Under the pieces are notes generated by a model. It saw only the letters and a program-made list of their open reading frames with translations. It searched no databases and was not told the DNA's origin. Position numbers and translations under genes: made by a program. Shown piece after piece: positions 43,384 to 63,857 of a DNA stretch of 64,000 nt (the first letter of the stretch is position 1; every line of letters begins with the position of its first letter). The DNA comes from Dechloromonas sp. Lineage in GTDB: Bacteria > Pseudomonadota > Gammaproteobacteria > Burkholderiales > Rhodocyclaceae. The stretch is from the NCBI GenBank assembly GCA_028689015.1, contig JAQTXC010000007.1, positions 1 to 64,000 on the forward strand, given 5' to 3'.

Positions 43384-43385
43384 GC

Positions 43386-45166: not shown

Positions 45167-45178
45167 GCGCCGCCGCCC

Positions 45179-45214
45179 TAGGAATATTCCTACCCGCAAT
45201 CGATGCTATTCCTA
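45179..45214. promoter_or_regulatory. TAGGAATATTCCTA palindrome plus third ATTCCTA half-site
   Basis: cccTAGGAATATTCCTAcccgcaatcgatgctATTCCTAgg; NarL/FixJ-family heptad-style arrangement between the RR and Crp/Fnr genes. Confidence 0.5.
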
Positions 45215-45317
45215 GGCAACAATCAGGGGATGTCTGCTGCCGGCAGCGCCGGGTCAAACCTACACTGACTCCATAGCAGCGACCGTTAGGCTGCGATCAG
45301 GAATCAAGAGAATCAGC

Positions 45318-46142: not shown

Positions 46143-46144
46143 AA

Positions 46145-46888: not shown

Positions 46889-46890
46889 GG

Positions 46891-47382
46891 CTACTTGAGC
46901 AGCGCTTCGGCGAGGGCGCTCAGCTCGGTCGGACTGATCCGCCCAGCGCGGGCAAGAATGACCTTGCCGCTACGGTCGACCGCCACGGTGAAGGGCAAAC
47001 CCATCACCTTGTTGCCGAGCGCCTGCATCAGTTCCAGGCCCTGCGTCTTACCGATCAGGACGTGGTAGTCCATCTCGTAAGCCTTGGCGAACTCGCGCAC
47101 CGGGTCGGCCTGGTCTTCGATGCTGATGCCGAGCACGATCAGCCCCTTGCCCTTGTACAGGCGGTCGACCTTGGCAAAATCGGGAATTTCGGCGCGGCAG
47201 GGGCTGCACCAGCGCGCCCAGAAATTGACGATGAGCGGCTTGCCCTGCCACTGGCGCAAGGCCTGCGGCTGGCCGGCGAGATCATTGAAAGTGGTCGCGA
47301 AGAGCGGATTGTGCGGCGCCGGCTCGGCCAGCGCCAGGGCAGCCCAGCCAAGCAGGGCGAACAGCGCCAGGCGGTATTTCAC
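46891..47382 (-). CDS. TlpA-like periplasmic thioredoxin (GTG start)
   Basis: (V/M)KYRLALFALLGWAALALA signal, IVNFWARWCSPCRAEIPDF WCSPC motif; GTGA overlap with nosY. Confidence 0.88.
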   Translation of the reverse strand: MKYRLALFALLGWAALALAEPAPHNPLFATTFNDLAGQPQALRQWQGKPLIVNFWARWCSPCRAEIPDFAKVDRLYKGKGLIVLGISIEDQADPVREFAKAYEMDYHVLIGKTQGLELMQALGNKVMGLPFTVAVDRSGKVILARAGRISPTELSALAEALLK

Positions 47383-48206
47383 GGCAGGTCGCCGCGCTTG
47401 AACACGAAGTAGCCGGCGCAGGCGTTGAGCAGGCCGATCAGTGTCGGATAGACCAGCGCGAACAGGCGGAAGCCCTCTGCGCCGAACAGGTCGAGTACGA
47501 CATAGGCGGATGGCCCGAGCACGATCAGTTGCGGGTCGAACATGGCGAGCGCCGCGGTGCGGAAGACCTGCAGCGGATTCAACAGGGCGAGCATGACGGC
47601 GACTTCGGGTGCCACCTTGCCCTGGATCATGACACCGAGCAGGATCAGGTCGAGAAAAAGGAGCAGAGCGAGCCAGACCATGAAGGCTGCGCCCTGCGCC
47701 ATATCGGTGCTGCGCGCCAAGGCCGAGATCAGCATACCGATACCGAGGAAGCAGACCGACATCACGGCGAGCAAGGCGCTGTAATAGCCAAAAATCGCCC
47801 ACGGCACCTCGATGTCCTGGATGGTCGCCCAGCCAACCGCGGCGAGCATGGCTAGGAAGACTGGCGCGAAGACGACGATGTAGCGGCCGATGATCTTGCC
47901 CCAGAACCACGCAAACAGCGACACTGGCAGCGACAGCAGGTATTCGAAGACACCCGCCTCACGGTCGCCGGCAACCGAGCGCACCGTGGTGATCAGTACG
48001 AAGATGGGCAGGATCGCCATAGTCAGCTGGATATAGGTGACGAGAAGACGCGATAGGCCAATGAAACCGAGCACACGCGACTCGGTCAGGCCGAACAGGA
48101 AAAGCATCGCGACAATGCCGCCGAAGATCAGCGTGTAGATCTGAAACCAGCGCGCACGCAAGGATTCAACAATATCAAGCTTGGCGGTCAACCACAGTTG
48201 CTTCAT
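47379..48206 (-). CDS. nosY: NosY ABC transporter permease
   Basis: Six-TM ABC-2 permease: MKQLWLTAKLDIVESLRARWFQIYTLIFGGIVAMLFLFGLTESRVLGFIGLSRLL... Confidence 0.9.
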   Translation of the reverse strand: MKQLWLTAKLDIVESLRARWFQIYTLIFGGIVAMLFLFGLTESRVLGFIGLSRLLVTYIQLTMAILPIFVLITTVRSVAGDREAGVFEYLLSLPVSLFAWFWGKIIGRYIVVFAPVFLAMLAAVGWATIQDIEVPWAIFGYYSALLAVMSVCFLGIGMLISALARSTDMAQGAAFMVWLALLLFLDLILLGVMIQGKVAPEVAVMLALLNPLQVFRTAALAMFDPQLIVLGPSAYVVLDLFGAEGFRLFALVYPTLIGLLNACAGYFVFKRGDLP

Positions 48207-48695
48207 TTATTTGCCCTTGGCCAGCGTCAGCCGGCGCATTTCGTTGAAATCGACGCTGCCCGACTGTGCCCTGCTTACAGCGCCAAAGTTGTAAGCCATC
48301 GGCGAAGTTTTTCTGACGTAACTTGCCTGCCGGGGATCCAACCACTGCATCTCATCCCTACTTTTACTGTCGCTGTCAGCAACCCAGAAACGAGTAGCAG
48401 CATCGGTCATCCATGGATATTTGTCGATCTTGTCTCTCTGCCAGAAAAGCAGGCAACCAACGTCATCGAACATAAAAACAGTTTGGCTGGGGCCGCCACG
48501 TATTTCTGCGGCAAAGCGACGGTCTGAAATAACCATATTGCAGCGGATACAGGTATCACGATCCCATCTGATCTCGCCCATTCCCTCCGGCCAGTTATCT
48601 TTCTTGCAGCCCGAAAGAGCCACGGCCAGAGGCGTCAACAGCAAGCTCCCGAGTCCAAGGCGGCTCACAAATTGACGACGTCCAAAATCACACAT
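48207..48695 (-). CDS. nosL: NosL copper lipoprotein
   Basis: Lipobox ALSGC, CIRCNMVISDRRFAAEI, FDDVGCLLFW. Confidence 0.93.
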   Translation of the reverse strand: MCDFGRRQFVSRLGLGSLLLTPLAVALSGCKKDNWPEGMGEIRWDRDTCIRCNMVISDRRFAAEIRGGPSQTVFMFDDVGCLLFWQRDKIDKYPWMTDAATRFWVADSDSKSRDEMQWLDPRQASYVRKTSPMAYNFGAVSRAQSGSVDFNEMRRLTLAKGK

Positions 48696-48697
48696 GA

Positions 48698-49564
48698 TCA
48701 GCTCCTCGCCTCTGTTAATGACAAATCGCTGACCAGCGCCGTGTAGCGCGATACGATACCAAGAAAGCGTAGGCGATCCGGGCCGGCGATTGCACCTTCC
48801 CAGACCAGGTTGTCGGCGCTGGCTGTAAACTTCCAGCCGGCTAGCGCCTTGGCAAAGGCCGGTTCGAAGCGACACAGAGCAATACGGCAGTCGAGCACTG
48901 CGGTCAGGGTCACAGCGTCGGTAACCTTGTCGTCAAGGACAATCTTGCCCATGTCCATCTCGATCACCCGGTTGACCAGGGCCGAGACCTCGTCGAGGCG
49001 GTGGCTGGAGATGATCATCGTCGCATCGTCGAGGCGTTCGGCAAGCAGATCAAAGAAGATCTTGCGCGCTTCCGGGTCGAGATTGGCGGCCGGCTCATCC
49101 ATAACCAGCACCTTAGCGTCGCGGCCAAGCGCGATGGCAATCAGCAGCTTCTGTTTCATGCCGCCAGACAGGCGCACGAACTGGCGCGCCAAGATGCTTT
49201 CGAGACCGAGTCCGAGACGGCGCGCAATGGCGTGGATGCGCTGCGGATCTGTGCCACACAGCGCGGCCGAAAATTCGATCAGTTGGCCGACCGGCATCTT
49301 GAGCGGCGGCGGCAGTTGCGGCACGAAGCCGATGTTCCCGAGCACGGTCGTCCGGTGGCTGCGCGGGTCAAGGCCGGCGATGGCGACCGTGCCGTCGAAG
49401 GTGTATTCGCCGAGCAGGCAGCGGATCAGCGTCGTCTTGCCGGCGCCGTTCGAGCCGATCAGCGCGACACGCTCACCGATCCCGATATCGAGGCTGATGC
49501 CGTCTAGAACGCGGGCGCGGCGGAAAGTCTTGGCCAAGTTGTTGAATTGGATCATGGGAGTCAT
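48698..49564 (-). CDS. nosF: NosF ABC transporter ATPase
   Basis: Walker A GSNGAGKTTLIRCLLGEY, RLSGGMKQKLLIAIAL, LVMDEPAANLDPEA. Confidence 0.92.
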   Translation of the reverse strand: MTPMIQFNNLAKTFRRARVLDGISLDIGIGERVALIGSNGAGKTTLIRCLLGEYTFDGTVAIAGLDPRSHRTTVLGNIGFVPQLPPPLKMPVGQLIEFSAALCGTDPQRIHAIARRLGLGLESILARQFVRLSGGMKQKLLIAIALGRDAKVLVMDEPAANLDPEARKIFFDLLAERLDDATMIISSHRLDEVSALVNRVIEMDMGKIVLDDKVTDAVTLTAVLDCRIALCRFEPAFAKALAGWKFTASADNLVWEGAIAGPDRLRFLGIVSRYTALVSDLSLTEARS

Positions 49565-49599
49565 CGAGTGAAAATGCCTGTTTTTATCGGGTCGAGTGC

Positions 49600-50565
49600 T
49601 CAGAGCAGTTGCGACAGACCCTTGACTTCATAACGCAGGGCACCAGTCGGGCAGACATCAACACACAAGCCGCAACGCGTGCAATCCGGCCCGAGACTCA
49701 TGCTTTCTTCACTCGCCCGGCCCTTGACCGTGACATCGAGCACATGCGGCACGAGGCAGACTTTGCGGCAATCGCCCTCGTGGAAACAATGCTCGACGTG
49801 GAAGCTGACGCGAAGTGGCGACAGGGTGCCGACCGCACCGTAAGTCAGACCGATCGGGCAGACGTAGCGGCACCAGGCACGGCGCGAATAGACAATTTCG
49901 AACACCAGTAGCAAGCCAACCCAGCCCAGCGCCAGGCTAGGCCCATAGATCAGGGCGCGCGAGAGGATGCCAGTCGGCGACAGGGTTTCGAACACTGTGT
50001 AGCCGGTGACGATGGCGAGCAGCGCAAAGAGCAGCCAGAACACGGTGCGCGTGCCGCGGTGGAACTCATGGTCAGTAATCAGCTTCTTCCCGACCAGCTT
50101 GATATGCAGCGCTTCGGCCCATTCGGCAAGCAGGTGGTAAGGGCAGACCCAGGAACAGAAGGTCCGGCCGCCGAGCAGCACCCAGATCAGGAAGACCGTG
50201 AAGGTGCCGATGAACAGGTTCACGATGATGTGCTTGTGGGCCAGCATCACCTGCAGCGCCGAATTGAGATCAATCAGGTGGAAACCGACAAAGCGCGAGG
50301 CGGTCAGCGCCCCTTCGAGAATCTGGATGTCGAGCCAGAAACTGAAGACAAACAGCAAGTTTACCGCCAGCAGAACCGCCCAGCGGCGGTTGCGCCATTT
50401 GTGACTGACCAGGTGGTGGTCGCGGGCATGCATCTTTTCCTTGATGTAGCGATCCTTGTCCTCGTACTTGAGAAACATGATCTTCTGAACCTTTTCAGAA
50501 ACCACGGCGGGCTTTTTCGGTGCAGCACCGAGCATACCCATGAACAGGTCAGTGAAGCGGCTCAT
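49600..50565 (-). CDS. nosH: NosH (NapH-like) membrane ferredoxin
   Basis: TM segments, TFCSWVCPYHLLAEW, RRAWCRYVCPIGL, CTRCGLCVDVCPTGAL. Confidence 0.88.
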   Translation of the reverse strand: MSRFTDLFMGMLGAAPKKPAVVSEKVQKIMFLKYEDKDRYIKEKMHARDHHLVSHKWRNRRWAVLLAVNLLFVFSFWLDIQILEGALTASRFVGFHLIDLNSALQVMLAHKHIIVNLFIGTFTVFLIWVLLGGRTFCSWVCPYHLLAEWAEALHIKLVGKKLITDHEFHRGTRTVFWLLFALLAIVTGYTVFETLSPTGILSRALIYGPSLALGWVGLLLVFEIVYSRRAWCRYVCPIGLTYGAVGTLSPLRVSFHVEHCFHEGDCRKVCLVPHVLDVTVKGRASEESMSLGPDCTRCGLCVDVCPTGALRYEVKGLSQLL

Positions 50566-51416
50566 GTTAGCTCCCCTTTCCAGGTCGCCTGGGCATCAAT
50601 CACAATGGCTGCCGGCTCAGACGGACAAACCATTTCGCAGACACCACAGCCGACACAAGGCTCAAGGACAACCGGCATCATGCGGGTCGAGCCGTCGGCC
50701 GACTTGAGTTGGCGCAATTCAATGGCGCCCTTGACCGGGCACTCACGCACGCACAGGTCGCACAGCGGCAGGTCGTAGGGATGCTCGGCGATCGGTATCG
50801 GTTTCCAACGGTCGACGTCCATGTAACGCATTTTTCCGTCAAAGCCGGCACCGCGCGCCTGCCCCTTGAAACCTTTACCCTGCACTGCAAGGCATGCGGA
50901 GGGCTGGGCCAGTCGTGCAATACCAATACGTTCCTTGAGATTGAGCGTCGGCTCGGGATCGTTTTCCTTGGCCTTGAGAATAGGCGCCTCAGCGAGCAAG
51001 GCACCCTCGCGGATATTCAGTGAAGGTGGCTTCTTGTAGGTCAGTGAGCCGGTTGGACAGGCCAGGATGCACTGCACGGCATCGCAGGAGAAATCACAAG
51101 CCTGCTCACGCGGGTCGATATAAGGCACGCCAAGACCAAAGCCATCATCAATATCGCCAAGCTTGATAGCCTGCACCGGGCAGACCTGGACACACTGTCC
51201 GCATTTGATGCACGAGGACAGGAAATCTGATTCGTTGAGCGCGCCGGGCGGGCGCAGACGGTGCGGTGAGGCGTTCAGCACCGGAATGTAGCCGAGCAGC
51301 GAAAGGCCAACGACACCGCCGACCAGGCCGACCGACTGAAGAAATTTGCGCCGCGCCTTGGCAGCTTTTTCCAGCGACATCGCCGGCTTTTTCGATTTCT
51401 CGACAGGAACATTCAT
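50562..51416 (-). CDS. nosG: NosG (NapG-like) polyferredoxin
   Basis: CIKCGQCVQVCPVQAI, CDLCVRECPVKGAI, CVGCGVCEMVCP; N-terminal TM. Confidence 0.88.
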   Translation of the reverse strand: MNVPVEKSKKPAMSLEKAAKARRKFLQSVGLVGGVVGLSLLGYIPVLNASPHRLRPPGALNESDFLSSCIKCGQCVQVCPVQAIKLGDIDDGFGLGVPYIDPREQACDFSCDAVQCILACPTGSLTYKKPPSLNIREGALLAEAPILKAKENDPEPTLNLKERIGIARLAQPSACLAVQGKGFKGQARGAGFDGKMRYMDVDRWKPIPIAEHPYDLPLCDLCVRECPVKGAIELRQLKSADGSTRMMPVVLEPCVGCGVCEMVCPSEPAAIVIDAQATWKGELT

Positions 51417-52777
51417 GACAGGGCCGGCCGTGCGGGCTTGATGAAGCGGGGCTTTTCGTCGCGCAGGATCAGGTCGGGGGTTGAGAAGGGGGCTAGGCGC
51501 TCAAGAAAATCGAGCAGTTCCATGACCGGCGAACTACGGAAAAAACGGGCAATCGGCAGTTCCATCCATATTTGGTCAGCGTAGGCGTAGAGATCGTGTT
51601 TCTGGTCCCCGTAACCGTTGCCATCGCGGTCGAAACCCTGGTAGTCGTCCCAGTAATTGCCCTGCCAGAAATTACGCGCATTATTGTTGTTGTCGCCGCG
51701 GCCACCGTAACTGACCTGGGTCAGGTTACCCTCGAAGACGTTGTCGATGACATTGTTACCTCCCGTCTCACTGTTGAACTGAATGCCAATCCCGTTGTAG
51801 GCAAAACGGTTATGTCGGAACTCAATACTACTATCGGGCTGAAAAGGCGACAGATCTGAACCAACACCGACGCCGCAGTAGATGATTTCGTTGTTCTCGA
51901 CCAGCGTACCGGAGGCTTCTTTGAAGCCGAAGCCCATGCCGGTCGCGCCTGTGGCGTGCGAAATTACGTTGTTACGAGCAACGCCGCCCTCGGTGTACAT
52001 GAAGTAGACGCCGACCGCGTTGTCGTAGAAACGGTTGTTCTCTACCACGTTGTCGTTGGCGAACATGAAATGCAGCGAGTAGCGGCTGCGCCGACCGAGA
52101 TTGCCGCGAAAGATGTTGCGGTGCGAATACCAAGCGACCATGTCGCGCGAATCGATAACTTCATTGCCTTCGACCAGATTGTCGTTGCTGTACCACAGGC
52201 GCAGGCCGTCACCACGCACACCAAGTTCGCGGTCCTTGGATCGCACCTTGTTGTTGCGTACGACGCTGTTGCTCGACTGCTTAAGATCGATGCCAAACAA
52301 ACAGTTGTCGACAACATTGCCTTCAATGACATTACGGTTACCACGCACATCAAGGCAGGAATCATCTGTATCGTGCGAGTCACCAGAACCGGTCAGGCGT
52401 AGGCCGCGGATGACCGAGTCACCAGCATTGAGCACCATGACCGTACCGCGGTCGCCAGCGTCGATAGTGACCTGGCCGCCGCCCTCGATGGTCAGCGGCT
52501 TGTCGATGACGACCGGCCCAGCATAGACGCCGGGTGCTGGCTTGATCACCGCCCCCGGTGCTGCTTGGTCGACCAGCGTCTGGAAGGGCTTCAGGCCATG
52601 TACGCGCTTGTCGCGCTGCATCAGCATGTAGGTCGGCTTCGGGCGATCGATACCGACCCGAGGTGCGGTGCTCAGGTCTGCAGTAGCGCCCAGTTGCTGC
52701 TCGGTCTTGCCGATCGGAATGACCAGCAGCATAGCGGCGGCCAGTCCGACCCGGCCCAGTGTGCTCAGGTGCCGCAT
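51413..52777 (-). CDS. nosD: NosD periplasmic beta-helix copper-processing protein
   Basis: GVYAGPVVIDKPLTIEGGGQVTIDAG, NVIEGNVVDNCLFGIDLKQSSNSVVRNN, MYTEGGVARNNVISHATGATGMGFGFKEASG. Confidence 0.93.
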   Translation of the reverse strand: MRHLSTLGRVGLAAAMLLVIPIGKTEQQLGATADLSTAPRVGIDRPKPTYMLMQRDKRVHGLKPFQTLVDQAAPGAVIKPAPGVYAGPVVIDKPLTIEGGGQVTIDAGDRGTVMVLNAGDSVIRGLRLTGSGDSHDTDDSCLDVRGNRNVIEGNVVDNCLFGIDLKQSSNSVVRNNKVRSKDRELGVRGDGLRLWYSNDNLVEGNEVIDSRDMVAWYSHRNIFRGNLGRRSRYSLHFMFANDNVVENNRFYDNAVGVYFMYTEGGVARNNVISHATGATGMGFGFKEASGTLVENNEIIYCGVGVGSDLSPFQPDSSIEFRHNRFAYNGIGIQFNSETGGNNVIDNVFEGNLTQVSYGGRGDNNNNARNFWQGNYWDDYQGFDRDGNGYGDQKHDLYAYADQIWMELPIARFFRSSPVMELLDFLERLAPFSTPDLILRDEKPRFIKPARPALS

Positions 52778-52781
52778 GACA

Positions 52782-53759
52782 CTACTCAGCCAGGCCTTCG
52801 CGCAACTGCTTGCGCCGGATCAGCAAGGCCAGCATCAGGCTGGCGAAGATGATGACGAGTAGGCCATAGCCCCAGTACGGATAGGAGAAGGTTGAAAATT
52901 GTGCAACCTTGCCTTCACCGAACACAGTGGGCATGAAGGGCTTGACCGTGAAGGCACCCCACGGATGCATGTTGTGGCCGAAGAACCACAGCCAGCCAGC
53001 GTAGGTGATCACGAAGAAGACCGGTAGCAGCGCCGGGACCAGCGCCAGCAGCAACTGGAAGGGACGAATTTTCGCAGTGCCGGCAATCACGACACCCATC
53101 ACCGCAAGCAGCCCGAAGATGACGAGTTGCGATACCTGGCGCACGTTGTCACCCCATTGCTGGATGCGATCCATGTCCTTAAAGAACGTGCCGGATTCAC
53201 GCATGTAATCCTGGACATGGCTTTCAAGATGGCCAAGCACGAACTGGTCGACAATCATCCAGGCGGCGACGGCGGCGAAGCCGGCGGTCAACACGATCAG
53301 ACGCGGTTTTTTCCTGGGCAGAGCGAAGGCTGCCATCATCACCGCGAAGAAGCCGAAGAAAAACTTGGCGAGCGGCTTTTCGACCGGCGCCCCGGTGGCG
53401 ATCGGGAACATGCCGACATAGTGATTGATGGTGTTCATCTCATGCACACAGTCGAGGCCTTCGGCCCCCTTGTCGACATTCTTCGCGGCATCAGTGATCG
53501 GGTTGTAGCGTTCATCCTCGGCGGCGAGATCCTTCTGAATGATTTCGCCGGCCATGCGCGTACCCTTGCCGGCAGCCTTGCAGCCGTTATAGACACCGTC
53601 GAAATGGAAATGGATGCGGATGCCGTCCGGGAAAGCATCGGGCGGATAGTTCGGGGCGGTCAGCGAGACCCACCAGATCGGTGCGAAATAGGCGGCGACC
53701 AGCGCGACCAGCGCAATGAAGGTCAGCCCACCAACGATTTTGTTCTGTTTTTCCATCAT
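52782..53759 (-). CDS. nosB: NosB-like integral membrane protein of clade II nos cluster
   Basis: MMEKQNKIVGGLTFIALVALVAAYFAPIWWVSLTAPNYPPDAFPDGIRIHFHFDGVYNGC...; multi-TM, between cytochrome and nosD. Confidence 0.82.
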   Translation of the reverse strand: MMEKQNKIVGGLTFIALVALVAAYFAPIWWVSLTAPNYPPDAFPDGIRIHFHFDGVYNGCKAAGKGTRMAGEIIQKDLAAEDERYNPITDAAKNVDKGAEGLDCVHEMNTINHYVGMFPIATGAPVEKPLAKFFFGFFAVMMAAFALPRKKPRLIVLTAGFAAVAAWMIVDQFVLGHLESHVQDYMRESGTFFKDMDRIQQWGDNVRQVSQLVIFGLLAVMGVVIAGTAKIRPFQLLLALVPALLPVFFVITYAGWLWFFGHNMHPWGAFTVKPFMPTVFGEGKVAQFSTFSYPYWGYGLLVIIFASLMLALLIRRKQLREGLAE

Positions 53760-53847
53760 GCCACTCTCTGTTCCTTTGACTCCCGCATTTTGTGCGAGAG
53801 AAACGCTGCCCACCTCAGGCGGGCAGCGGGCAAAACAATGACTGCTC

Positions 53848-54573
53848 TTATTTCTTTTTGCCGGCCTTCGGCTTGCACATATTACCCGGCATCACCAGGC
53901 TCGACTGGTAGGCGGAAATCGCCACCAGTTGCTCGTTCGTATAAGGCTTGATGACCTTGACCATGTCCGGGTTGGCGTTGCGGCGATGGCCGTCGCGAAT
54001 CTCGGTCATCTGGCGCAACAGATACTTATAGTGCTGGCCGGCGATTACCGGATAGAACTTGGTCTTGTCGCCCTCGCCGTTCTTGCCGTGGCACTCGAGG
54101 CACTGCTTTTCGTACAGTTCCTTACCCTTGGCAACCTGGATCGCGGCATCCGGACCTTCATACTTGCCATGGTCGCTAGGAATGCACAGCTTCTCGATAT
54201 AGGCCGAGACGTCGGCCAGTTCCTGCGGATCGGTCAGCGTTGCGGCGAAGGGGTACATCGTCGGGTTGTCGCGCAGGCCGGCGCGGATGTCGGCCATTTG
54301 CTTGATCAGCACGGTGGTGTGCTGTCCAGCGAGCTGAGGGAAGGTGCCGTCCGGACGTCCGGCGCCGGAGGGCAGGTGGCAGGCACCGCAAACCTCGTAA
54401 GCTTCCTCGCCGTTCTTGATGTCGCCCTTGAGCTTCAGCGCTTCGATTTTTTCGCCTTCCTGGGCATTCCACTGGTAGCTCTTACCCTCGATACCCTCCT
54501 TCTTCGGAGCCGGTGGACCGGCCAAGGCGACACCTGCACTGAGCAGGCCAATCAGTAACAGTGATGCTTTCAT
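53848..54573 (-). CDS. Diheme c-type cytochrome (nosC2-type)
   Basis: Signal peptide, CGACH and CLECH heme motifs. Confidence 0.9.
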   Translation of the reverse strand: MKASLLLIGLLSAGVALAGPPAPKKEGIEGKSYQWNAQEGEKIEALKLKGDIKNGEEAYEVCGACHLPSGAGRPDGTFPQLAGQHTTVLIKQMADIRAGLRDNPTMYPFAATLTDPQELADVSAYIEKLCIPSDHGKYEGPDAAIQVAKGKELYEKQCLECHGKNGEGDKTKFYPVIAGQHYKYLLRQMTEIRDGHRRNANPDMVKVIKPYTNEQLVAISAYQSSLVMPGNMCKPKAGKKK

Positions 54574-54642
54574 TTTCGATCTCCTCGATGGTGTATTGTT
54601 CGAAATGCCTGACCATTGTCGGCAGTCGAAAACCCGGATGCC

Positions 54643-54656
54643 TTGATACGTATCAG
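54643..54656. promoter_or_regulatory. FNR/DNR-type box upstream of nosC2-nosBDGHFLY operon
   Basis: TTGATACGTATCAG, 9/10 to TTGAT-N4-ATCAA, centre about 76 bp before the cytochrome ATG. Confidence 0.6.
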
Positions 54657-54677
54657 TTTCCGGGAACAGGGAACGAT

Positions 54678-54986
54678 CTATTTCAGTTTAGAGAGGAATA
54701 CTGAAATCGCCTTCATTTCCTCATCACTCACCAGATGCATGACACCCTTCATGGCGGCCGTCTGGCCGTTGTTACGTGCACCACTCTTGATATCTTTCAT
54801 CTGCTGTTCGGCATAGGCCGCATTCTGGCCGGCAAGCTTCGGGTAATTCGGCATCAGCGGCTTGTCACCCTTCGGCCCGTGGCAGGCATTGCAGGTTTTT
54901 TCGGCATACAACGCGGCGCCATCCGGGGCCGCAATCACTGGGCTGGCAACAAGGCCAGCAGCAAGCAGTGCAATAACAAGTTTCAT
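54678..54986 (-). CDS. Monoheme c-type cytochrome (nosC1-type)
   Basis: MKLVIALLAAGLVASPVIAAPDGAALYAEKTCNACHGPKGDKPLMPNYPKLAGQN. Confidence 0.92.
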   Translation of the reverse strand: MKLVIALLAAGLVASPVIAAPDGAALYAEKTCNACHGPKGDKPLMPNYPKLAGQNAAYAEQQMKDIKSGARNNGQTAAMKGVMHLVSDEEMKAISVFLSKLK

Positions 54987-55068
54987 CTATTTCCCCTAAA
55001 TCCGGAAACAGGGGGAAGTGCTCACCACCCCCTGTGGTCAGCCTCAATTAAGGATCGAGGCATCCAAT

Positions 55069-57360
55069 TTACTTGACCTTCTTGGCGCCATTCTGCTCAA
55101 GATAAGTCTTGGCGCGCAGACCGATGTCAGCGGCCTTGACCTGGTATTGCCAGACTTGTTCGGCCCACAGGTTGGCCTGGTCCCAATCCTTCTTGGCAGC
55201 AGCGGCTTCGTGCTTAGCCTTGGCATCCTTGGTCTTGTTGAGCTGGTCGGTTGCATCTTCGACCATGTTCACCACGTCCGGGAAGTCCTTATAGTTGGTG
55301 CTGAGGATGTAGCCAACCACAGAATCAATGATGGCTTGCGTATCGACCACCTTCTTCACCGTCGCCTTGTAGTCGGTTTCGGTATAGCTGGCCTTGACCT
55401 CGACCGTCTTGCCCGGCTTCCAGCCCTTCGGCTTGACCAGCAGGTAACCCTGCATTTCAAGGTGCAGCGCCGAACAGAATTCCGTGCAGTAGTACGGATA
55501 GACACCTTCCTTGTCGGCCTTGAACTTGACGGTGACAGTCTTGCCCGGCTCAATCGAGGCATGCACGTTATAGGTCGACACCGCAAACCCGTGCGTTTCA
55601 TCCTGGGCCCGTTCGAGGTTGGTCAGGTGGATGGTAATTTCGTCACCCACTTCAGCCTCAATGGTTTCCGGTGTGATGTGCGAACGGATCAACGTACCGA
55701 AGACTTCGATCTTGTTGCCCTTCTTGACGATTTTTTCCTCGCCGGCACGAACTGCACCCGGATTCGGCTTGTCGGTACGGGAATCCGTTCCCACCTTGTA
55801 ACGTACGCCCGGCTTCAGTTTGGAGGCTTCAATGGCAACCACGTAGTGCGGCTCGCCGAGCGGAATCGGCATGTCGTACAAGAGTTGCATCTTGTCGTTC
55901 GAGATGTCGATCAGCTGGTGATTTTGCGGATGCAGCGGGCCGACCGGGTTGAAACGGTCGATCGACAGCTTGTTGAGCGCAACCAGGTAACGACCCTTCG
56001 GATCGGCCGAATCACCTTCCATGGTCATCAGGTGACCGATGTTGTAGTGCACGGAGATCTTGTCGAGCACTTTGCCGTCACAGTGATTCCATTTGACGAC
56101 CTGCGAATCGACATACAGCGAGGTGTAGGCGATACAGGGCTTGGAATCGTACTGGGTGTGCAAGGGACCGAGGCCGAGCTGAACCTGGGTGTGCAGTGCA
56201 TCCTTCATGCCGATGACCGGAATGCCGTACGGGTCCTTGGATTCGAACTTGCCGGCCTTGATGGCGGCCTGGATCTTCTCGAAGGAATAGACGGATACGT
56301 GGGTATCGAGCTTGCCAGCGACGGTCAGGAACTTGCCATCCGGGGTGACATCGACGCCGTGCGGCGACTTCGGTTCCGGAACCAGGAAGAGGATGCCTTC
56401 CTTGATAGCCGTTTCCATCATCAGGACCTTGTGGCCATTGATGGTTTTTGCCTTACCGGCAGCAACCAGTTCGGCTGCTTTTTTCCAGTTGATCACGTGC
56501 AGGTAGTCGGTGTCCTTGGCGGAACAGCCGGCTTCATACGGTGGACGACCCTTTTCGATGCCGCCGACGTAACGCTCGGAACAGAAGGAGTTGGTAAACG
56601 ACCAGCCGTCGGATGGGCCCTTGCCGGCATCCGACAAATCCTGCGAGTACGGCGGCAGTTCGAGCGAAAAGGACTGCTTCGGATCGATGCGGCCTTCCTT
56701 GCGGTCGAACTTCCAGTAGGTGATGCCGCCGCGATACTTCTCGTTGAACTCTTCGAGCGGGTAGAACTTCTTGTTCTCGAGCGGCGAAGCGTACTGGGCG
56801 GCTTCGATGATGTAGTCGGTGTTCGGTGTGACGAAGGCGCCGCCGTGTTCCGACTTAAAGATCGGGTTGACCACGATCTGCTTGGTTTCGAAGTCGCGCA
56901 GATCGATCACGGCGAGGCGCGGATTGGCCTTATCGTTGATGAACAGGAACTGGCCGTCGTACTTGCCCTGGGTTTCTGAAATGGCCGGGTGGTGCGTGTC
57001 GCCCCAGTTAATTTCCTTGCCGTCGATGTTGCCCTGGCGCAGGACGCGCTTGGATTCTTCATCGAAACCGTAGCCCTGCCAGGGTTCCGGCGTGAACACA
57101 CCAATGTATTTAAGGATGCGCATCGACGGAATGCCGTAGACGATGACCTGGCCGGACTGGCCGCCCGAACTGAAGGCGACGAAGTCATCACGCTTGCCGG
57201 TCGGGACATAGGTCTTGGATGCAGCCAGCAGATCCTGCTGACTGAGGTTGCGACGTTTCATCACGTCCTGTAGCGACTCGGCGGCCCAGGCGCTTGCGGC
57301 GCTGAGCCCGATCCCGGCTGCAATGAGCAGCACGCTGGATTTGACTGCAATTTTTTGCAT
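55069..57360 (-). CDS. nosZ: Nitrous oxide reductase, clade II (Sec-dependent)
   Basis: MQKIAVKSSVLLIAAGIGLSAASAWAAESLQ (Sec-like, no twin Arg), H-rich CuZ domain motifs, CuA motif CTEFCSALHLEMQGYLL; RBS GGGAG before ATG at 57360. Confidence 0.95.
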   Translation of the reverse strand: MQKIAVKSSVLLIAAGIGLSAASAWAAESLQDVMKRRNLSQQDLLAASKTYVPTGKRDDFVAFSSGGQSGQVIVYGIPSMRILKYIGVFTPEPWQGYGFDEESKRVLRQGNIDGKEINWGDTHHPAISETQGKYDGQFLFINDKANPRLAVIDLRDFETKQIVVNPIFKSEHGGAFVTPNTDYIIEAAQYASPLENKKFYPLEEFNEKYRGGITYWKFDRKEGRIDPKQSFSLELPPYSQDLSDAGKGPSDGWSFTNSFCSERYVGGIEKGRPPYEAGCSAKDTDYLHVINWKKAAELVAAGKAKTINGHKVLMMETAIKEGILFLVPEPKSPHGVDVTPDGKFLTVAGKLDTHVSVYSFEKIQAAIKAGKFESKDPYGIPVIGMKDALHTQVQLGLGPLHTQYDSKPCIAYTSLYVDSQVVKWNHCDGKVLDKISVHYNIGHLMTMEGDSADPKGRYLVALNKLSIDRFNPVGPLHPQNHQLIDISNDKMQLLYDMPIPLGEPHYVVAIEASKLKPGVRYKVGTDSRTDKPNPGAVRAGEEKIVKKGNKIEVFGTLIRSHITPETIEAEVGDEITIHLTNLERAQDETHGFAVSTYNVHASIEPGKTVTVKFKADKEGVYPYYCTEFCSALHLEMQGYLLVKPKGWKPGKTVEVKASYTETDYKATVKKVVDTQAIIDSVVGYILSTNYKDFPDVVNMVEDATDQLNKTKDAKAKHEAAAAKKDWDQANLWAEQVWQYQVKAADIGLRAKTYLEQNGAKKVK

Positions 57361-57413
57361 TTGAATATCTCCCAACAAAACAGAAGTAATACGGCCTGCC
57401 CCCATCGTCGCCT

Positions 57414-57444
57414 GCGACCAGATGCCGCAGCGACAATTTGTCGC
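57414..57444 (-). promoter_or_regulatory. Tandem RegA/PrrA-type boxes upstream of nosZ
   Basis: GCGACCAGATGCCGC (57414-57428) and GCGACAATTTGTCGC (57430-57444), both GCGAC-N5-GNCGC. Confidence 0.5.
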
Positions 57445-57472
57445 ACTGTAAACCAGGCCGATTTTTAAAAAA

Positions 57473-57486
57473 TTGATCTCTGTTAA
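57473..57486 (-). promoter_or_regulatory. FNR/DNR-like box upstream of nosZ
   Basis: TTGATCTCTGTTAA (reverse TTAACAGAGATCAA), 8/10 to TTGAT-N4-ATCAA; TACAGT -10-like hexamer at 57445-57450. Confidence 0.5.
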
Positions 57487-57586
57487 TCCCAATCCGGTAA
57501 TTGTGAGGAAAATGTAGAGATGCCTTTTGGCGCCGCGATCCGGGTGCCCCGGAACAGCCAAAACTCTCATTCAGAAAGGATCTTCC

Positions 57587-58042
57587 ATGCGCCATCCCGT
57601 TTTTTTCGCCGCCAGCCTGCTTTTCTCGGGCGGCTTGTTTGCCGCTGCCGCCGACCAGGTCGAAATTCATCAACCTTACGTCCGGCTCGCCCCGCCCAAT
57701 GCACCGGCTGCCGGTGCCTTCATGGTGATCAGGAATACCGGCAGCAAAGACGTCAAAGTCGTCAAGGCCGACAATCCGGCAAGCCGGTTAACTGAACTGC
57801 ACACACATCTAAACGAGGCCGGTGTCATGAAAATGCGCCAGGTGCCAGCCATCGAGATCAAGGCCGGTGGCGAAACCCAGCTCCAGCCGGGCGGCCTGCA
57901 CATCATGCTGATCGAGCTCAAGGCACCAATGCAGGAAGGCGACAACATAGCAATCACCCTTGGCTTCGACGACGGCAGCAGCAAGCAGGTCGACGCCAAG
58001 GTCATTCGCCCTCTGCCGACCGGCATGCGGATGCAGCACTGA
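57587..58042 (+). CDS. PCu(A)C-family periplasmic copper chaperone
   Basis: Signal peptide; YVRLAPPNAPAAGAFMVIRN, TELHTHLNEAGVMKMRQV, LQPGGLHIMLIEL (HxnMx..HxM). Confidence 0.92.
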   Translation: MRHPVFFAASLLFSGGLFAAAADQVEIHQPYVRLAPPNAPAAGAFMVIRNTGSKDVKVVKADNPASRLTELHTHLNEAGVMKMRQVPAIEIKAGGETQLQPGGLHIMLIELKAPMQEGDNIAITLGFDDGSSKQVDAKVIRPLPTGMRMQH

Positions 58043-58113
58043 ACCCGAATTTTTGCGCGTTTCCAGGCGGTCGACCGCCTGGAAACGCGACTTTTCCGCC
58101 GCCAAGCCTACAC

Positions 58114-58449
58114 ATGAAAACACTGCTCACAACCCTGCTTGCACTGCTCTGCATGGCCTCCGCCCAGGCCGAACACGCCCACGGCAAGATCGACGACAGC
58201 CTGCCCGATGCCGAGCGTATCCGTTTCTGCGAGCGGATGCGCGACCAGGCATTGCAGGCTTTCTACGACCGCGAGCATGGTCGACCGATGAAACTATTTG
58301 ACGAAGACGGCAGCCACGGCCCGCGCATCGCCAATCAGATTACCCGCCGCATTTACGCCGAACCACAGATCGCCGCCCGCCGCCATGCCGAGACCTTCGG
58401 TCGCGCCACCTGCAACGAAATGATGGGGGCTGCGCCAGACAGCGACTGA
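58114..58449 (+). CDS. Hypothetical exported protein
   Basis: MKTLLTTLLALLCMASAQAEHAHG signal; two Cys in mature part. Confidence 0.7.
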   Translation: MKTLLTTLLALLCMASAQAEHAHGKIDDSLPDAERIRFCERMRDQALQAFYDREHGRPMKLFDEDGSHGPRIANQITRRIYAEPQIAARRHAETFGRATCNEMMGAAPDSD

Positions 58450-58467
58450 TGCAAGTCGCACGCCAAA

Positions 58468-58481
58468 TTGATCAAGATCAT
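58468..58481 (+). promoter_or_regulatory. FNR/DNR-type box
   Basis: TTGATCAAGATCAT, 9/10 to TTGAT-N4-ATCAA, 61-74 bp before the ATG at 58542. Confidence 0.55.
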
Positions 58482-58541
58482 TTTTGTCGACCGCCGGGCG
58501 CGAAAGAATGGCGACTCCTTGCTCCCGGACGCAAAATCATC

Positions 58542-59219
58542 ATGCCGTCGCTGCCCCGCCTATTTCTTCCGCTGCTGCTGATCGCTGCACTGCCCGGTAG
58601 CGTGCATGCCGAAAGCGGCGCCAGTCTGTATGCGCGCCTCGCCGGCCAGGCCAAAGCCGGCACCTGCTTCGAAGTCGACATTGACCTCGAAAAGGGGCCG
58701 GGACTGAACGGCGACAATGGCGAACTGACCTACCCGATGGCCTTCAACAACGTCACCGAGGGCTGGAGCTGGCAGCCGGGCAGCCAGCCCGGTCTGGAAG
58801 ACTATTACCGCTACAAATACCTGCCGCTCGGCTCGACCGAGGAGGCCCGCGGCGAATACCGGGCAGAAGACCAGATCGGCGAAATACAGACCATGCAGGT
58901 GCGCTGGCGCCACGATTATTTCCTCGCCTTCGACAACATCTATGATTTCTACCGGCGCGAAGTCAATGACGCCGCCGGTTTTGCCAGCCATCTGCCGGCC
59001 GGCCTGGCCGCTAACACGGCCATGCGCGCCCGGGCCTGCCTGGAGGAACCTCTGAGCAGTGAAAGCACAACCTTCTGGAAGGCAACACACGGCCAGCCGG
59101 TCGATTTCACCCTGAAAAAACGTTACCTGATCGGCAAGCTGCAGGCCATCGATTTTGTCGACCGCCGCAGCGCGACCATCATCAGCAGCGTCACTCCCCT
59201 GCCGCAGGCGGCGCCCTGA
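58542..59219 (+). CDS. Hypothetical exported protein
   Basis: MPSLPRLFLPLLLIAALPGSVHAESGASLYARL signal; mature C...C pair. Confidence 0.7.
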   Translation: MPSLPRLFLPLLLIAALPGSVHAESGASLYARLAGQAKAGTCFEVDIDLEKGPGLNGDNGELTYPMAFNNVTEGWSWQPGSQPGLEDYYRYKYLPLGSTEEARGEYRAEDQIGEIQTMQVRWRHDYFLAFDNIYDFYRREVNDAAGFASHLPAGLAANTAMRARACLEEPLSSESTTFWKATHGQPVDFTLKKRYLIGKLQAIDFVDRRSATIISSVTPLPQAAP

Positions 59220-59260
59220 TGCCCAGCCCGCGCTCCACTCCTGATCACGGATATACCATC

Positions 59261-59629
59261 ATGACCCACACCAAACCCACCCTGACCCACATGCTCGTTT
59301 TTGCCCTGGCCAGCGCATTGACCGCCGGCAACTGCCTCGCCGCCGACGAACTGCCGCCGGCCCTGCAGGCCAGCGTCCGCAGCCTCGGCCAGCTCAATGG
59401 CCTGGCCCTGGCCTGCAAGCAAATGGCGCTGAGTACCCGCCTGCGCGACATCCTGATCCATGACGCGCCAAAGGAACGGGTGGTCGGCGAAGCATTCGAA
59501 CAGGCCACCCAAGAAGCGTATCTGGCACAAGGCCAGGCCGGCAAGGCCTGCCCGGACAGCAAGTCGCTAGCCGGCCGGGTTGATGCTGCTGCCGTCGAAT
59601 TGCGCCGTGTCGTCGAGCAAGCACACTGA
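59261..59629 (+). CDS. Hypothetical exported protein
   Basis: MTHTKPTLTHMLVFALASALTAGNCLAADELPPAL signal; LACKQMA and KACPDS. Confidence 0.7.
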   Translation: MTHTKPTLTHMLVFALASALTAGNCLAADELPPALQASVRSLGQLNGLALACKQMALSTRLRDILIHDAPKERVVGEAFEQATQEAYLAQGQAGKACPDSKSLAGRVDAAAVELRRVVEQAH

Positions 59630-59631
59630 GC

Positions 59632-60237
59632 ATGGCCATGCTGCGACGCTGCCTGCTCCTGCTTTACCTCGGCTCCCTGCTGATTGCCCTGCCGGCGCTC
59701 GCCGAGCCGGCCCACAAGCTGCTCGCCGGCGAAGCCAGTGCAGTCAATCCGCGCTATCTGCTGATCGGTCCGGACGGCCAGGCGGTCAGCGACCAAGACT
59801 GGCGCGGCCGTTTCCAGCTGATTGCTTTCGGCTACACCTATTGCCCGGACATCTGTCCGACCACGCTGGTCGACATGGCCGAACTGCTCAAACAGCTCGG
59901 CCCCGACGCCAACCGCGTCCAGAGCATTTTCATTTCGGTCGATCCGGAGCGCGACACGCCGCGCGTGCTGCAAACCTACACGCGCTTCTTCGATGAACGC
60001 ATCCTCGGTCTGAGCGGCACGTCCGAACTGGTCCAGCGTGCGGCGCGCAACTACCGGGTGCGCTATGCCAAGGTCGCCGGCAAGGATGCCCAAAACTATG
60101 CGGTCGACCATTCGGCAGGACTCTATTTGCTCGATCCCGCCGGCCAGTTCGTCAAGAAATTCGCCTACGGCCGGCCGGTTGATGAAATCCTCGCCGAACT
60201 CCGCGTTTTCCTGAGCACGTTCGAAACGCAGCGCTGA
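59632..60237 (+). CDS. SCO1/SenC-family protein
   Basis: IAFGYTYCPDICPTTLVDMAELL, FISVDPERDTP, VDHSAGLYLLDPAGQFVKKFAYG. Confidence 0.92.
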   Translation: MAMLRRCLLLLYLGSLLIALPALAEPAHKLLAGEASAVNPRYLLIGPDGQAVSDQDWRGRFQLIAFGYTYCPDICPTTLVDMAELLKQLGPDANRVQSIFISVDPERDTPRVLQTYTRFFDERILGLSGTSELVQRAARNYRVRYAKVAGKDAQNYAVDHSAGLYLLDPAGQFVKKFAYGRPVDEILAELRVFLSTFETQR

Positions 60238-60281
60238 ATCCCGGCATTTAACCGAAGCCGCCCGGCTTCCCAGGAAAGATC

Positions 60282-60920
60282 ATGGCTAAACATCCGCTCC
60301 ACCATTTCATAGCCCTTTGCTGCGCCACCCTGCCGCTGTTCGCCAGTGCGGCCGACGCCGCGAGCGCCCCGGCCAGCGAGAGAATCGCCCGCGGCCTGTT
60401 GCTGCAACACGCCGGCCGGATGATTTTCACGCCCTGCCGCGAGCGCACCTACGTCCAGCTCGAAGACACCTCGCCCGACCAGCAGCTCAGCGCCGCCCTG
60501 GTCAAGCTCGGCCTGGCCGAGAACAAGCCGCTTTACGTCGAATTCACGGGGCTGGCCGAAGCCGATCGCCTCAAGGTGTCGTGGATCAATTTTGCCCACA
60601 CCGATGCGCGCTGCCAGGCCAGTGCCAATCCGGATGAGAAATGGCGCGCCCTCGGCGCTGCGACGGACTGGACGATGCACCTGAGCGAGCAGCAAGTCCG
60701 GCTGAATGAAGCCGGCCAGCCCGAATTCCGCCACAACGAGGTCGTCATTGCGGCAGGTAGCGAAACTGTAGCCATCACAGTCGGCAAGGAACAGTCCGAA
60801 CAATGGCTGCTGACCCGACAGTTGTGCAGTAGCCAGGACAAGAACAGCCTGTTCGGCTGGCAGGCCGAACTGCGACGACCAGGCAAGGTCCTGCGCGGCT
60901 GTGCTTGGCAGGGCTATTGA
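60282..60920 (+). CDS. Hypothetical exported protein
   Basis: MAKHPLHHFIALCCATLPLFASAADA signal; TPCRERTYVQLED, four mature Cys. Confidence 0.68.
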   Translation: MAKHPLHHFIALCCATLPLFASAADAASAPASERIARGLLLQHAGRMIFTPCRERTYVQLEDTSPDQQLSAALVKLGLAENKPLYVEFTGLAEADRLKVSWINFAHTDARCQASANPDEKWRALGAATDWTMHLSEQQVRLNEAGQPEFRHNEVVIAAGSETVAITVGKEQSEQWLLTRQLCSSQDKNSLFGWQAELRRPGKVLRGCAWQGY

Positions 60921-61049
60921 AAATTTTCTACAGAACGAAACCACGCTTAGCCATTGTCGGCAGAGTGGGCTCCCTAAGCGGGAGACCATTCCGTTGACCA
61001 AACAGCTGCCGCCCCTTGCCTACCCCGGTAACTCGCCGCAAGGCCTGCC

Positions 61050-61734
61050 GTATTGCCAAGCGGGCAGTCCGTCCGCGCACGCAGAGCGTATCGGAGCGCC
61101 GATAGTGATCGGATCCAGTTTGGCCTGGATCGAGGGCAGCAGCGTGCATTGGCTGGCCTTGTTCATCGCGCTGTGCCGCGCGACGCTGACCCAGATCGCG
61201 ACCAACCGGCACAACGATGCGGTCGACTGCGAAAAAGGCAACGATTTGCCCGACCGCCCCAGCCTGCTGCGCGTCACCGCGGACGGCGGCTGTTCCTACT
61301 CAAGCGGGCGACGGCCAATTCCCAACGCCCCCTTCGGCGAGTTGTTCGTGCTCTTCTTTTTCGGCAGGCAAGCCGTCTGCGGCAGCGTCTGGCTGCAAGG
61401 GGACGCGCCCGATATCAACCACCCTGCTCGCCGGTCTCATCTGCGGCCTGCCGGCCGCCACACGCTGGCCGCGCTGCTCAGCCGGGCCGGCGGGACGCGC
61501 GCCTACACGGCGATGCTGTTGACGCCTTTTCTGCGCTTTTCCCTACTCGCCCGGTTCGGTCACAGAGGTGTCCTGCTCGGCCTTTTCGCCCTGCTCAACG
61601 GACTCGCCAAGGTACGCACCTTGACCGCCCCAAGCAACAACCCAGCGCTCAATCTCTTGCTGCCGGCTACCGCACGCTGCAGCTTGATCCTCGCCGTGCT
61701 ACTCACCGCCGGTCTCCTGGTCGAACTCGCCTGA
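61050..61734 (+). pseudogene. menA: Decayed menA/UbiA-family prenyltransferase
   Basis: Fragments in different frames: RAVRPRTQSVS / APIVIGSSLAWIEGSS...QIATNRHNDAVDCEKGNDLPDRPSLLRVTADGG...PFGELFVLFFFG..CGSVWLQ / STTLLAGLICGLPAA / RHTLAALLSRAGGTRAYTAMLLTPF...; first Asp-rich motif kept, second (YRDxxxDxxxG) missing. Confidence 0.75.
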
Positions 61735-62633
61735 TGGACATCCTGCTGCCGCTAAGCCTCGCCTTCATCATGTTTTCACTCGGTATCAGCCTGCAGCCGG
61801 CCGATTTCCGGCGCGTCTTCGCCAGCCCGCGCGCTATCGGCATCGGGCTCGGCATCCAGATCCTCGGCCTACCCCTGCTCGCCTTCATGTTGCTCAACTT
61901 ATTCGGCATCGGTGGCGAAATGGCGGTCGGCGTCATAATTCTGGCCAGCACGCCGGGTGGCGTCAGCGCCGGCCTGCTCACCCTGCTCGCCGGCGGTGAA
62001 ACAGCGCTTTCAGTCTCGTTGACCGCAATCACCAGCCTCGGCGTGCTATTCACGCTGCCTCTCACGGTCGGCCTGGCGCTAGCGCATTTCGCCGGCGGCG
62101 AAGCGAACCTGCAGATGCCGGCCATGCGCACCGGCGTCGGCGTATTCCTGATCACCGTGCTACCGGTCTGCCTCGGCATGTTCTTCAGGCAGCGCCTGCA
62201 GGAACTAGCTGGCCGTCTGGAAAAGCCGCTCGCCAAGGTGTCGACCGTACTCTTCATCCTCATCGTGCTTTCCACTTTCGTCGCTCAGCGCAAAGTCGTG
62301 CTCGGCCACCTACCGAGCCTCGGACCGCTGCTTGTCGTCCTCAACCTGCTGAGCATGAGCCTCGGCGTCATCGCAGGCAGCCTCGGCGGCCTGCGACGAC
62401 GGCAGCAACTGGCGCTGGCCATGGAATGCGGCCTGCACAACGCGGCGCTCGGCATCTTCGTCGCCAACCTGCTGCTGCAGGTGCCGGCGCTGGCCGCGCC
62501 GAGCGTGGTATATGCTTTTCTGATGAATTTCTCGGCTTTCGGGCTCATTCTTCTACGTCCGCAACTTGCTAAAATTCTGACTGAGACCCGTAAGCGATCA
62601 ACAACGCACTTACCGGCTGAGCGACAGTGGTGA
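61734..62633 (+). CDS. Bile acid:sodium symporter (BASS)-family transporter
   Basis: MDILLPLSLAFIMFSLGISLQPADFRRVF..., ILASTPGGVSAGLLTLLAGGETALSVSLTAITS, ECGLHNAALGIFVAN; TGATG overlap with upstream pseudogene. Confidence 0.88.
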   Translation: MDILLPLSLAFIMFSLGISLQPADFRRVFASPRAIGIGLGIQILGLPLLAFMLLNLFGIGGEMAVGVIILASTPGGVSAGLLTLLAGGETALSVSLTAITSLGVLFTLPLTVGLALAHFAGGEANLQMPAMRTGVGVFLITVLPVCLGMFFRQRLQELAGRLEKPLAKVSTVLFILIVLSTFVAQRKVVLGHLPSLGPLLVVLNLLSMSLGVIAGSLGGLRRRQQLALAMECGLHNAALGIFVANLLLQVPALAAPSVVYAFLMNFSAFGLILLRPQLAKILTETRKRSTTHLPAERQW

Positions 62634-62777: not shown

Positions 62778-63242
62778 TTAGTGGCCGTGCTGCATCTTCG
62801 GCATGCCGCCGGCCATGCTGCGCATTACTGGCGCATCAACAGTTTTTTCACTGCCATCATCAAAACTGAGCGTCACCGGCACGATATCGCCTTCCTTGAG
62901 CGGCGTTTTGAGGTCGATCAACATGACATGCAGGCCACCTGGCTGCAACACCGCCTCGCCCTTGGCCTTGATCTCGATATTAGCCACCGGGCGCATTTTC
63001 ATGACGCCGTTATCATTGAGGTGGGTATGCAGTTCGGTCACCCGCGACGCTGGGTTGCTAGCCTTAAGCAACTTAACATCCTGCTCGCTGCTGTTGCGTA
63101 AGCGCATGAAGGCGCCGGTGGCCGGTGCATTGGGCGGCGCCAGGCGGACGTAAGGCTGGTCCACGGAGACTTGATCGGCTGCACCCGCCAAAGCGGCGGC
63201 GGACAAACTCAGGGTCAGGACAAAGAAGGCAAGTTTTTTCAT
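62778..63242 (-). CDS. PCu(A)C-family copper chaperone (second copy)
   Basis: QPYVRLAPPNAPATGAFMRLRN, TELHTHLNDNGVMKMRPV, LQPGGLHVMLIDL. Confidence 0.92.
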   Translation of the reverse strand: MKKLAFFVLTLSLSAAALAGAADQVSVDQPYVRLAPPNAPATGAFMRLRNSSEQDVKLLKASNPASRVTELHTHLNDNGVMKMRPVANIEIKAKGEAVLQPGGLHVMLIDLKTPLKEGDIVPVTLSFDDGSEKTVDAPVMRSMAGGMPKMQHGH

Positions 63243-63263: not shown

Positions 63264-63857
63264 TTAGAAAGCGTGACGCAAGCGGTCGACGATCGCCGCC
63301 GGGCTGGTGCCATGCGGCCAGCGCTCAAGTACGCGACCATCTCGACCGAGCAAAAAAGTTTCCGCGCTGTGATCCACCACATAACCGTCACCCGCCGTCG
63401 CGACATCCTGGCGAGCATAGAAAACGCCGTAGCGGCTGGCAATTTCAGCAATGGTCGCCGGGCTGGCGGTCGCCCCAACCATTTGCGGGTGGAAAAAGCG
63501 GACATACTCGGCCAGGCGCGCAGGCGTATCGCGTTGCGGATCAACCGACACAAATAAGACGCCCAGTTGCGCCAATTCAGCCGGCGTCAATTGCTGCATA
63601 GCCTCGGCCGTCGCATTTAACGAGGTCGGACAGATATCGGGGCAATAGGTGTAGCCAAAATAGAGGACCGTCAATTTGCCCGCGTAATCGTGCAGCGAAA
63701 CCGGGCCTTGGGCACTGTCGACCGTGAAATCCCCGCCGGGCAAGGCGCGTTCGGTATGGCCGAGTGGTGCCGGCACCGGCTGCCAGAAAAAGGCCAGCCC
63801 CAGCAACAAAAGCAGCAACGCCAAGACAACCGCGATCAGTGATCCCTGCTTATTCAT
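63264..63857 (-). CDS. SCO1/SenC-family protein (second copy)
   Basis: LYFGYTYCPDICPTSLNATAEAMQQL, FVSVDPQRDTP, VVDHSAETFLLGRDGRV. Confidence 0.92.
   Translation of the reverse strand: MNKQGSLIAVVLALLLLLLGLAFFWQPVPAPLGHTERALPGGDFTVDSAQGPVSLHDYAGKLTVLYFGYTYCPDICPTSLNATAEAMQQLTPAELAQLGVLFVSVDPQRDTPARLAEYVRFFHPQMVGATASPATIAEIASRYGVFYARQDVATAGDGYVVDHSAETFLLGRDGRVLERWPHGTSPAAIVDRLRHAF

Follow-up and report, generated by a model that had tools for sequence, protein, structure and literature searches.

The subject of this study is a six-gene operon on the plus strand at 57587-60920 of a 64,000-nucleotide stretch of Dechloromonas sp. DNA (contig JAQTXC010000007.1 of assembly GCA_028689015.1, positions 1 to 64,000; hereafter, the window), which lies divergently from nosZ, the gene for nitrous-oxide (N2O) reductase. 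The operon is real, and encodes two known copper chaperones together with four undescribed secreted proteins, here called U1 to U4. Within the genus, the presence of U2, U3 and U4 follows that of NosZ independently of linkage to nosZ; outside the genus the association is weaker. We consider it rather probable that the operon provides periplasmic accessory factors of N2O respiration, with PCuAC and SCO1 acting on the CuA site of NosZ and U1-U4 as lineage-specific helpers.

The six open reading frames (ORFs) follow the order PCuAC, U1, U2, U3, SCO1 and U4. The periplasmic Cu(I) chaperone PCuAC1 (57587-58042) matched PF04314 with 125.8 bits (cut-off 29.4), and the copper motif H-X10-M-X21-H-X-M could be read in its sequence. 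The SCO1/SenC-type copper chaperone (59632-60237) matched PF02630 with 156.4 bits (cut-off 22.8); both the CPDIC (CxxxC) motif and the distal histidine, in DHSAG, were read in the sequence. The four others are secreted proteins: U1 (58114-58449, 111 amino acids), U2 (58542-59219, 225 amino acids, beta-rich), U3 (59261-59629, 122 amino acids, directly upstream of SCO1, with a possible earlier start at 59219) and U4 (60282-60920, 212 amino acids, beta-rich, with four invariant cysteines). For U2 the first-ATG ORF opens at 58449; the start was set to 58542 because the promoter (see below) and the homologues place it there. The six proteins are 91-98% identical to those of a relative, G159, and have homologues in most genomes of the genus, hence they are not ORF artefacts. 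The first-pass annotation, made from the letters alone, had announced six consecutive genes divergent from nosZ: they were found where it had placed them, with firm family matches for the two chaperones.

The association with NosZ was assessed by Fisher tests in a genus sample of 61 genomes, NosZ being encoded in 52 of them and missing from nine. U4 was present in 51 of the 52 NosZ-bearing genomes versus none of the nine others (p = 6e-10), U2 in 46 versus none (p = 3e-7), U3 in 51 versus one (p = 3e-8) and U1 in 44 versus two (p = 4e-4). When only near-complete genomes were considered, the association of U2, U3 and U4 stayed significant. The first-pass annotation had proposed co-occurrence with clade II nosZ as a check. 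Within the genus this co-occurrence is strong for U2-U4 and moderate for U1, but the restriction to clade II did not hold, since the genes accompany either NosZ clade: three genomes (G121, G127 and G145) have solely a clade I-type NosZ, and yet U2, U3 and U4 are all there. The link is therefore to NosZ, not to clade II.

NirS (cytochrome cd1) was used as a control over the same 61 genomes. Its association with the U genes was far weaker (p = 0.03 for U4, 0.2 for U2 and 0.02 for U3). The five genomes with NirS and without NosZ (G123, G133, G135, G166 and G168) all lack U4 and U2, and four of the five lack U3; U2, U3 and U4 are present in all five genomes with NosZ and without NirS (G130, G149, G159, G165 and G173). 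The control rules out a dependence on denitrification in general. The accessory role to NosZ suggested by the first-pass annotation thus gains support from a co-occurrence that is specific for NosZ rather than for NirS.

The arrangement of the genes was compared at the nosZ regions and at the unlinked copies of the U genes in genomes of the same genus. In most of these genomes U2, U3-SCO1 and U4 are dispersed and have no nos neighbours. U3 directly precedes SCO1 at every locus examined, including those away from nosZ, where the pair faces a TonB receptor and has an ABC substrate-binding-like protein and a GGDEF protein after it. U1 sits directly downstream of a two-haem c-type cytochrome at most loci examined and, as counted from the coordinates, within 15 kb of nosZ in about 31 of the 44 genomes that have both. 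U2 and U4 are usually solitary and far from nosZ. The home of U4 is constant: it lies about 30 kb from rpoB and is flanked by livHMGF on one side and by a ferredoxin-reductase/SDR/UPF0093/rlmL block on the other. The pair usually divergent from nosZ in the genus is SCO2-PCuAC; in about 10 of the 61 genomes, U2, U3-SCO1 or U4 lie clustered next to nosZ, the window being one case and G159 a near copy of it. Because most relatives carry the genes at separate places, a single ancestral six-gene operon was ruled out, and the unit assumed at first does not stand as an ancestral one.

Phylogeny was controlled for with an rpoB tree of 40 genomes, pairs being counted on supported branches. NosZ is missing at seven separate tips of this tree, and in independent supported pairs it was followed by U4 in five out of five, by U2 in about four, by U3 in four and by U1 in about two. 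The home locus of U4 could be traced in six NosZ-less genomes (G132, G133, G135, G166, G168 and G170): the neighbours are present and U4 is missing. In G168, 10 base pairs (bp) separate livF from the ferredoxin reductase, with no U4 between them; in G133 only one flank of the locus was confirmed, no liv genes being seen beyond the reductase. A search of the NosZ-less home loci with a U4 profile found no remnant. The contigs of G126 and G158 are cut at this locus, and G123 gave no neighbour match. The informative NosZ-less cases are G132, G133 and G168, which come from lineages with dispersed genes.

The internal FNR-like box reported by the first-pass annotation is real and is tied to U2. It reads TTGATCAAGATCAT (58468-58481, plus strand) and, together with a -10-like AAGAAT at 58504-58509, makes up a predicted class II promoter of U2. 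An FNR-type box is found upstream of U2 in about 42 of 63 orthologues, nosZ-linked or not, versus 0.1 expected; in most box-bearing orthologues the box, TTGATnnnnATCAT, stands roughly 70-100 bp ahead of the U2 start with variable spacer bases, and conserved -10 positions occur at the class II FNR distance. No FNR-type box was found upstream of U1, U3 or U4. With a TTGATnnnnATCAA-type box at -41.5 and a -10 element taken as the mark of the FNR/ANR regulon, U2 alone among these genes would be a putative member. The conserved class II FNR-type promoter implies that U2 and the genes downstream of it may form an anaerobic transcript starting near 58516. The nosZ-PCuAC divergent region holds a half-conserved CRP/FNR-type box, TTGATCTCTGTTAA (57473-57486, 8 of 10 positions), and similar TTAACnnnnATCAA sites lie about 130 bp upstream of nosZ in several relatives. 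The nosZ upstream regions in the genus carry a TTGATnnnnGTTAA-type CRP/FNR site, unlike the site of U2, which suggests that nosZ and U2 are under different regulators. A further FNR-like box, TTGATACGTATCAG, was seen at 54643-54656, about 70 bp upstream of a minus-strand cytochrome c gene (53848-54573).

None of U1-U4 matched a Pfam or NCBIfam family as a single sequence, and none matched Pfam as an alignment. A profile search of the PDB, which covered U2 and U4, gave no matching chain for either. The AlphaFold models of these two proteins are confident (predicted local distance difference test scores of 86.5 for U2 and 87 for U4), and a Foldseek comparison of them with the PDB returned nothing significant (best E values of 0.006 and 0.03, with incoherent hits). 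An apparent Sec signal peptide was read by eye on each of the four proteins. Cysteine pairs had been noted at the outset in all the mature unknown proteins, and they are present: C39/C100 in U1, C42/C169 in U2, C52/C97 in U3 and C52/C111/C182/C207 in U4. In the alignments they are invariant or nearly so among the homologues of U1, U3 and U4; the U2 pair is conserved in only part of its family. The predicted mature U1 starts with HGH or HAH in 13 of 16 homologues and with EHAH in the window, a histidine-rich N-terminus that is a possible Cu(II) site. U1 and U3 were compared and are not related to each other. U4 may resemble NlpE/COG3650-like lipoproteins, a similarity that is given no weight here.

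Further observations concern the distribution of U2 and U4. Neither was found on known plasmids. One genome has a second U2 copy, partial or diverged, about 4 kb from the first (L196, which is G163, and L033). A U2 gene is also present in a metagenome-assembled genome labelled Desulfobulbus (L012); the deposited name is probably wrong, because the NosZ match of that genome is the same as that of G124, a member of the genus studied here.

The operon lies within a 20.5-kb block (40808-61287) that the window shares with G159 at 90-92% DNA identity (blastn; 91.7% over 40808-48208 and 90.2% over 48207-61287). Besides the nos cluster, nosZ and the six genes of the operon, the block encodes a sensor kinase, two more two-component proteins and a CRP/FNR-type regulator; it stops 370 bp past U4. 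The identity between the rpoB genes of the two genomes is only 82.2%, a value similar to that of other genome pairs in the genus. From this contrast, the operon apparently moved with nos as one unit, the simplest reading being that a whole nos unit, regulators included, was exchanged horizontally; misbinning of the contig may be an alternative source of the same contrast.

The nosZ gene of the window (55069-57360, minus strand) is of the clade II, Sec-dependent type: its product scored 935 bits on the clade II model TIGR04246 versus 402 on the model of clade I, the twin-arginine-translocated type. The remainder of the clade II nos cluster (48207-54986, minus strand), recognized from ORFs and from Pfam Fer4 and ABC domains, includes cytochromes c, nosB-like, nosD and ferredoxin-type nosG/H-like genes, the ABC ATPase gene nosF and a gene for a NosL-like lipoprotein, these names being assigned partly from sequence and position. 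Two near-identical nosZ copies in the same orientation, about 7 kb apart, were seen in several genomes of the genus (L168, L169, L170, L181, L183 and L184). Outside the exchanged block, the window holds a second PCuAC (62778-63242, PF04314) and a second SCO (63264-63857, PF02630), both on the minus strand and located after a gene of the bile-acid-symporter family (61734-62633). This pair is of the type that usually adjoins nosZ in the genus and is no part of the collinear match with G159; it would be the native-type SCO2-PCuAC2 pair, left just outside the block.

What could the six proteins do for NosZ? The CuA site is a feature shared by NosZ and cytochrome oxidase, and PCuAC-SCO pairs of the same chaperone families serve the CuA of cytochrome c oxidase. 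In three members of the genus (G000, G062 and G112) the NosZ profile TIGR04246, which includes the CuA region, matched only NosZ, no dedicated search for CoxB having been made; the same profile picks up CoxB-like CuA domains in many relatives. NosZ thus appears, from this profile, to be the sole CuA protein of the window genome, and the client of the chaperones is here, unlike in the oxidase case, most likely NosZ. In Paracoccus, N2O reduction at low copper falls when pcuC, senC2 or Pden_4445 is deleted (PMC7558416, PMC6530538). Taken with the apparently single CuA protein, these chaperone phenotypes lead us to propose that PCuAC1 and SCO1 load the CuA site of NosZ with copper.

The Paracoccus denitrificans genes pcuC-senC2-Pden_4445 are the closest parallel that we consider: a PCuAC, an SCO and a protein of unassigned function that sustain the reduction of N2O when copper is low (PMC7558416). 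They differ from the present set in being known by a low-copper mutant phenotype, whereas the window genes adjoin nosZ and include four new families; for Pden_4445 the comparison is by description only. Since the role of PCuAC and SCO is known in Paracoccus, only U1-U4 are undescribed, which is the part of the initial claim of an undescribed system that stands. The CuZ maturation factors NosL, NosD, NosF and NosY are also NosZ accessories, from the same nos cluster, but U1-U4 matched none of the corresponding Pfam or NCBIfam models; furthermore, NosL acts on CuZ and has no effect on CuA (PMC7558416). The clade II genes nosB, nosG, nosH, nosC1 and nosC2 likewise share the cluster and the clade II NosZ with U1-U4, which differ from them in that they are small, secreted and devoid of haem or Fe-S motifs. 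The products of these five genes form an electron-transport module.

We put forward tentatively, as a proposal that may well be right while falling a little short of probable, that U2, U3 and U4, together with U1, are an undescribed and partly FNR-controlled NosZ accessory system of the Azonexus/Dechloromonas group, needed for copper loading or upkeep at low copper, lost with NosZ and repeatedly gathered beside nosZ so as to move with it. In the broader accessory-factor explanation, which we consider rather probable, the U proteins would be helpers kept by the genus only while NosZ is there. An FNR-type regulator would activate U2 under anaerobic conditions; U3, given its constant pairing with SCO1, is taken to assist that protein; U1 may work with the nearby cytochrome c and so provide a link to the electron donor of NosZ; and U4 would be a disulfide-rich beta protein. 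Likely tasks are to hold or reduce copper and cysteines, or to hold the maturing NosZ or its donor, when copper is low; for U2 and U4 the candidates are copper holding, thiol redox or chaperoning of NosZ.

Several observations weigh against the accessory-factor explanation. A sign test on the five phylogenetic pairs cannot reach 0.05, so that the phylogenetic result is support and not proof. G126 and G158 are nearest to a genome that has U genes beside nosZ, and their co-loss may therefore be trivial. In a sample of 121 genomes of the family, U4 was rare outside the genus (G003 and G012) while NosZ is common there; most NosZ-bearing members of the family lack U4, which is therefore not generally needed by NosZ. 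G003, a complete genome from another genus, has no NosZ, yet U4 occupies its home locus there. Among 26 U2-bearing genomes, mostly from outside the core genus, 22 have NosZ (some as fragments only) and four do not. Within the genus, G136 has NosZ, U2, U3 and SCO1 and no U4, and six NosZ-bearing genomes are without U2. Finally, the alignments of U1-U4 contain neither CxxC nor a Met-rich copper motif, nor any proven copper-binding motif.

Paired cysteines without such motifs would also fit a module that does not deliver copper, and serves instead in electron transfer or in the protection of NosZ, as a periplasmic thiol/redox relay or in repair after oxygen; the position of U1 after a two-haem c-type cytochrome in most contexts examined points the same way. 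Yet at all loci examined U3 goes with SCO1, which is a chaperone of copper or thiols, and both PCuAC and SCO are copper proteins; we regard such a module as rather unlikely. Alternatively, U2, U3-SCO1 and U4 could belong to a wider low-oxygen or copper-homeostasis response of the genus, and be lost alongside NosZ when strains leave low-oxygen, copper-dependent niches. The FNR-type promoter of U2 is not nos-specific, no nos genes adjoin the dispersed copies, U4 or U2 persists in G003 and four distant genomes that have no NosZ, and SCO and PCuAC serve oxidases too. However, the NosZ-less genomes G133, G135 and G166 keep NirS, and are therefore probably still respiring without oxygen, yet have neither U2 nor U4; the NosZ profile, as opposed to a dedicated CoxB search, revealed no CuA oxidase in G000, G062 and G112; and the genes were gathered beside nosZ and travelled with it. 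We hold this wider response to be unlikely. It is very unlikely that the cluster is one of chance or convenience, in which the chaperones serve NosZ or another cuproprotein and unrelated exported proteins are carried along: gene places do differ among genomes, the order is not fixed and U2 has its own promoter inside the operon, but the co-occurrence with NosZ holds for unlinked copies too and U4 is missing precisely where NosZ is missing.

Overall, the initial interpretation is partly supported; the role in CuA or CuZ assembly that it suggested stays a putative one. Biological removal of N2O is mainly the work of NosZ, and the N2O reducers that have been studied include Rhodocyclaceae, for example Dechloromonas and Azospira. 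The four new secreted families that track NosZ are direct and testable candidates for helpers of N2O respiration, and U1-U4 could mark working N2O respiration in genomes of the Azonexus/Dechloromonas group.

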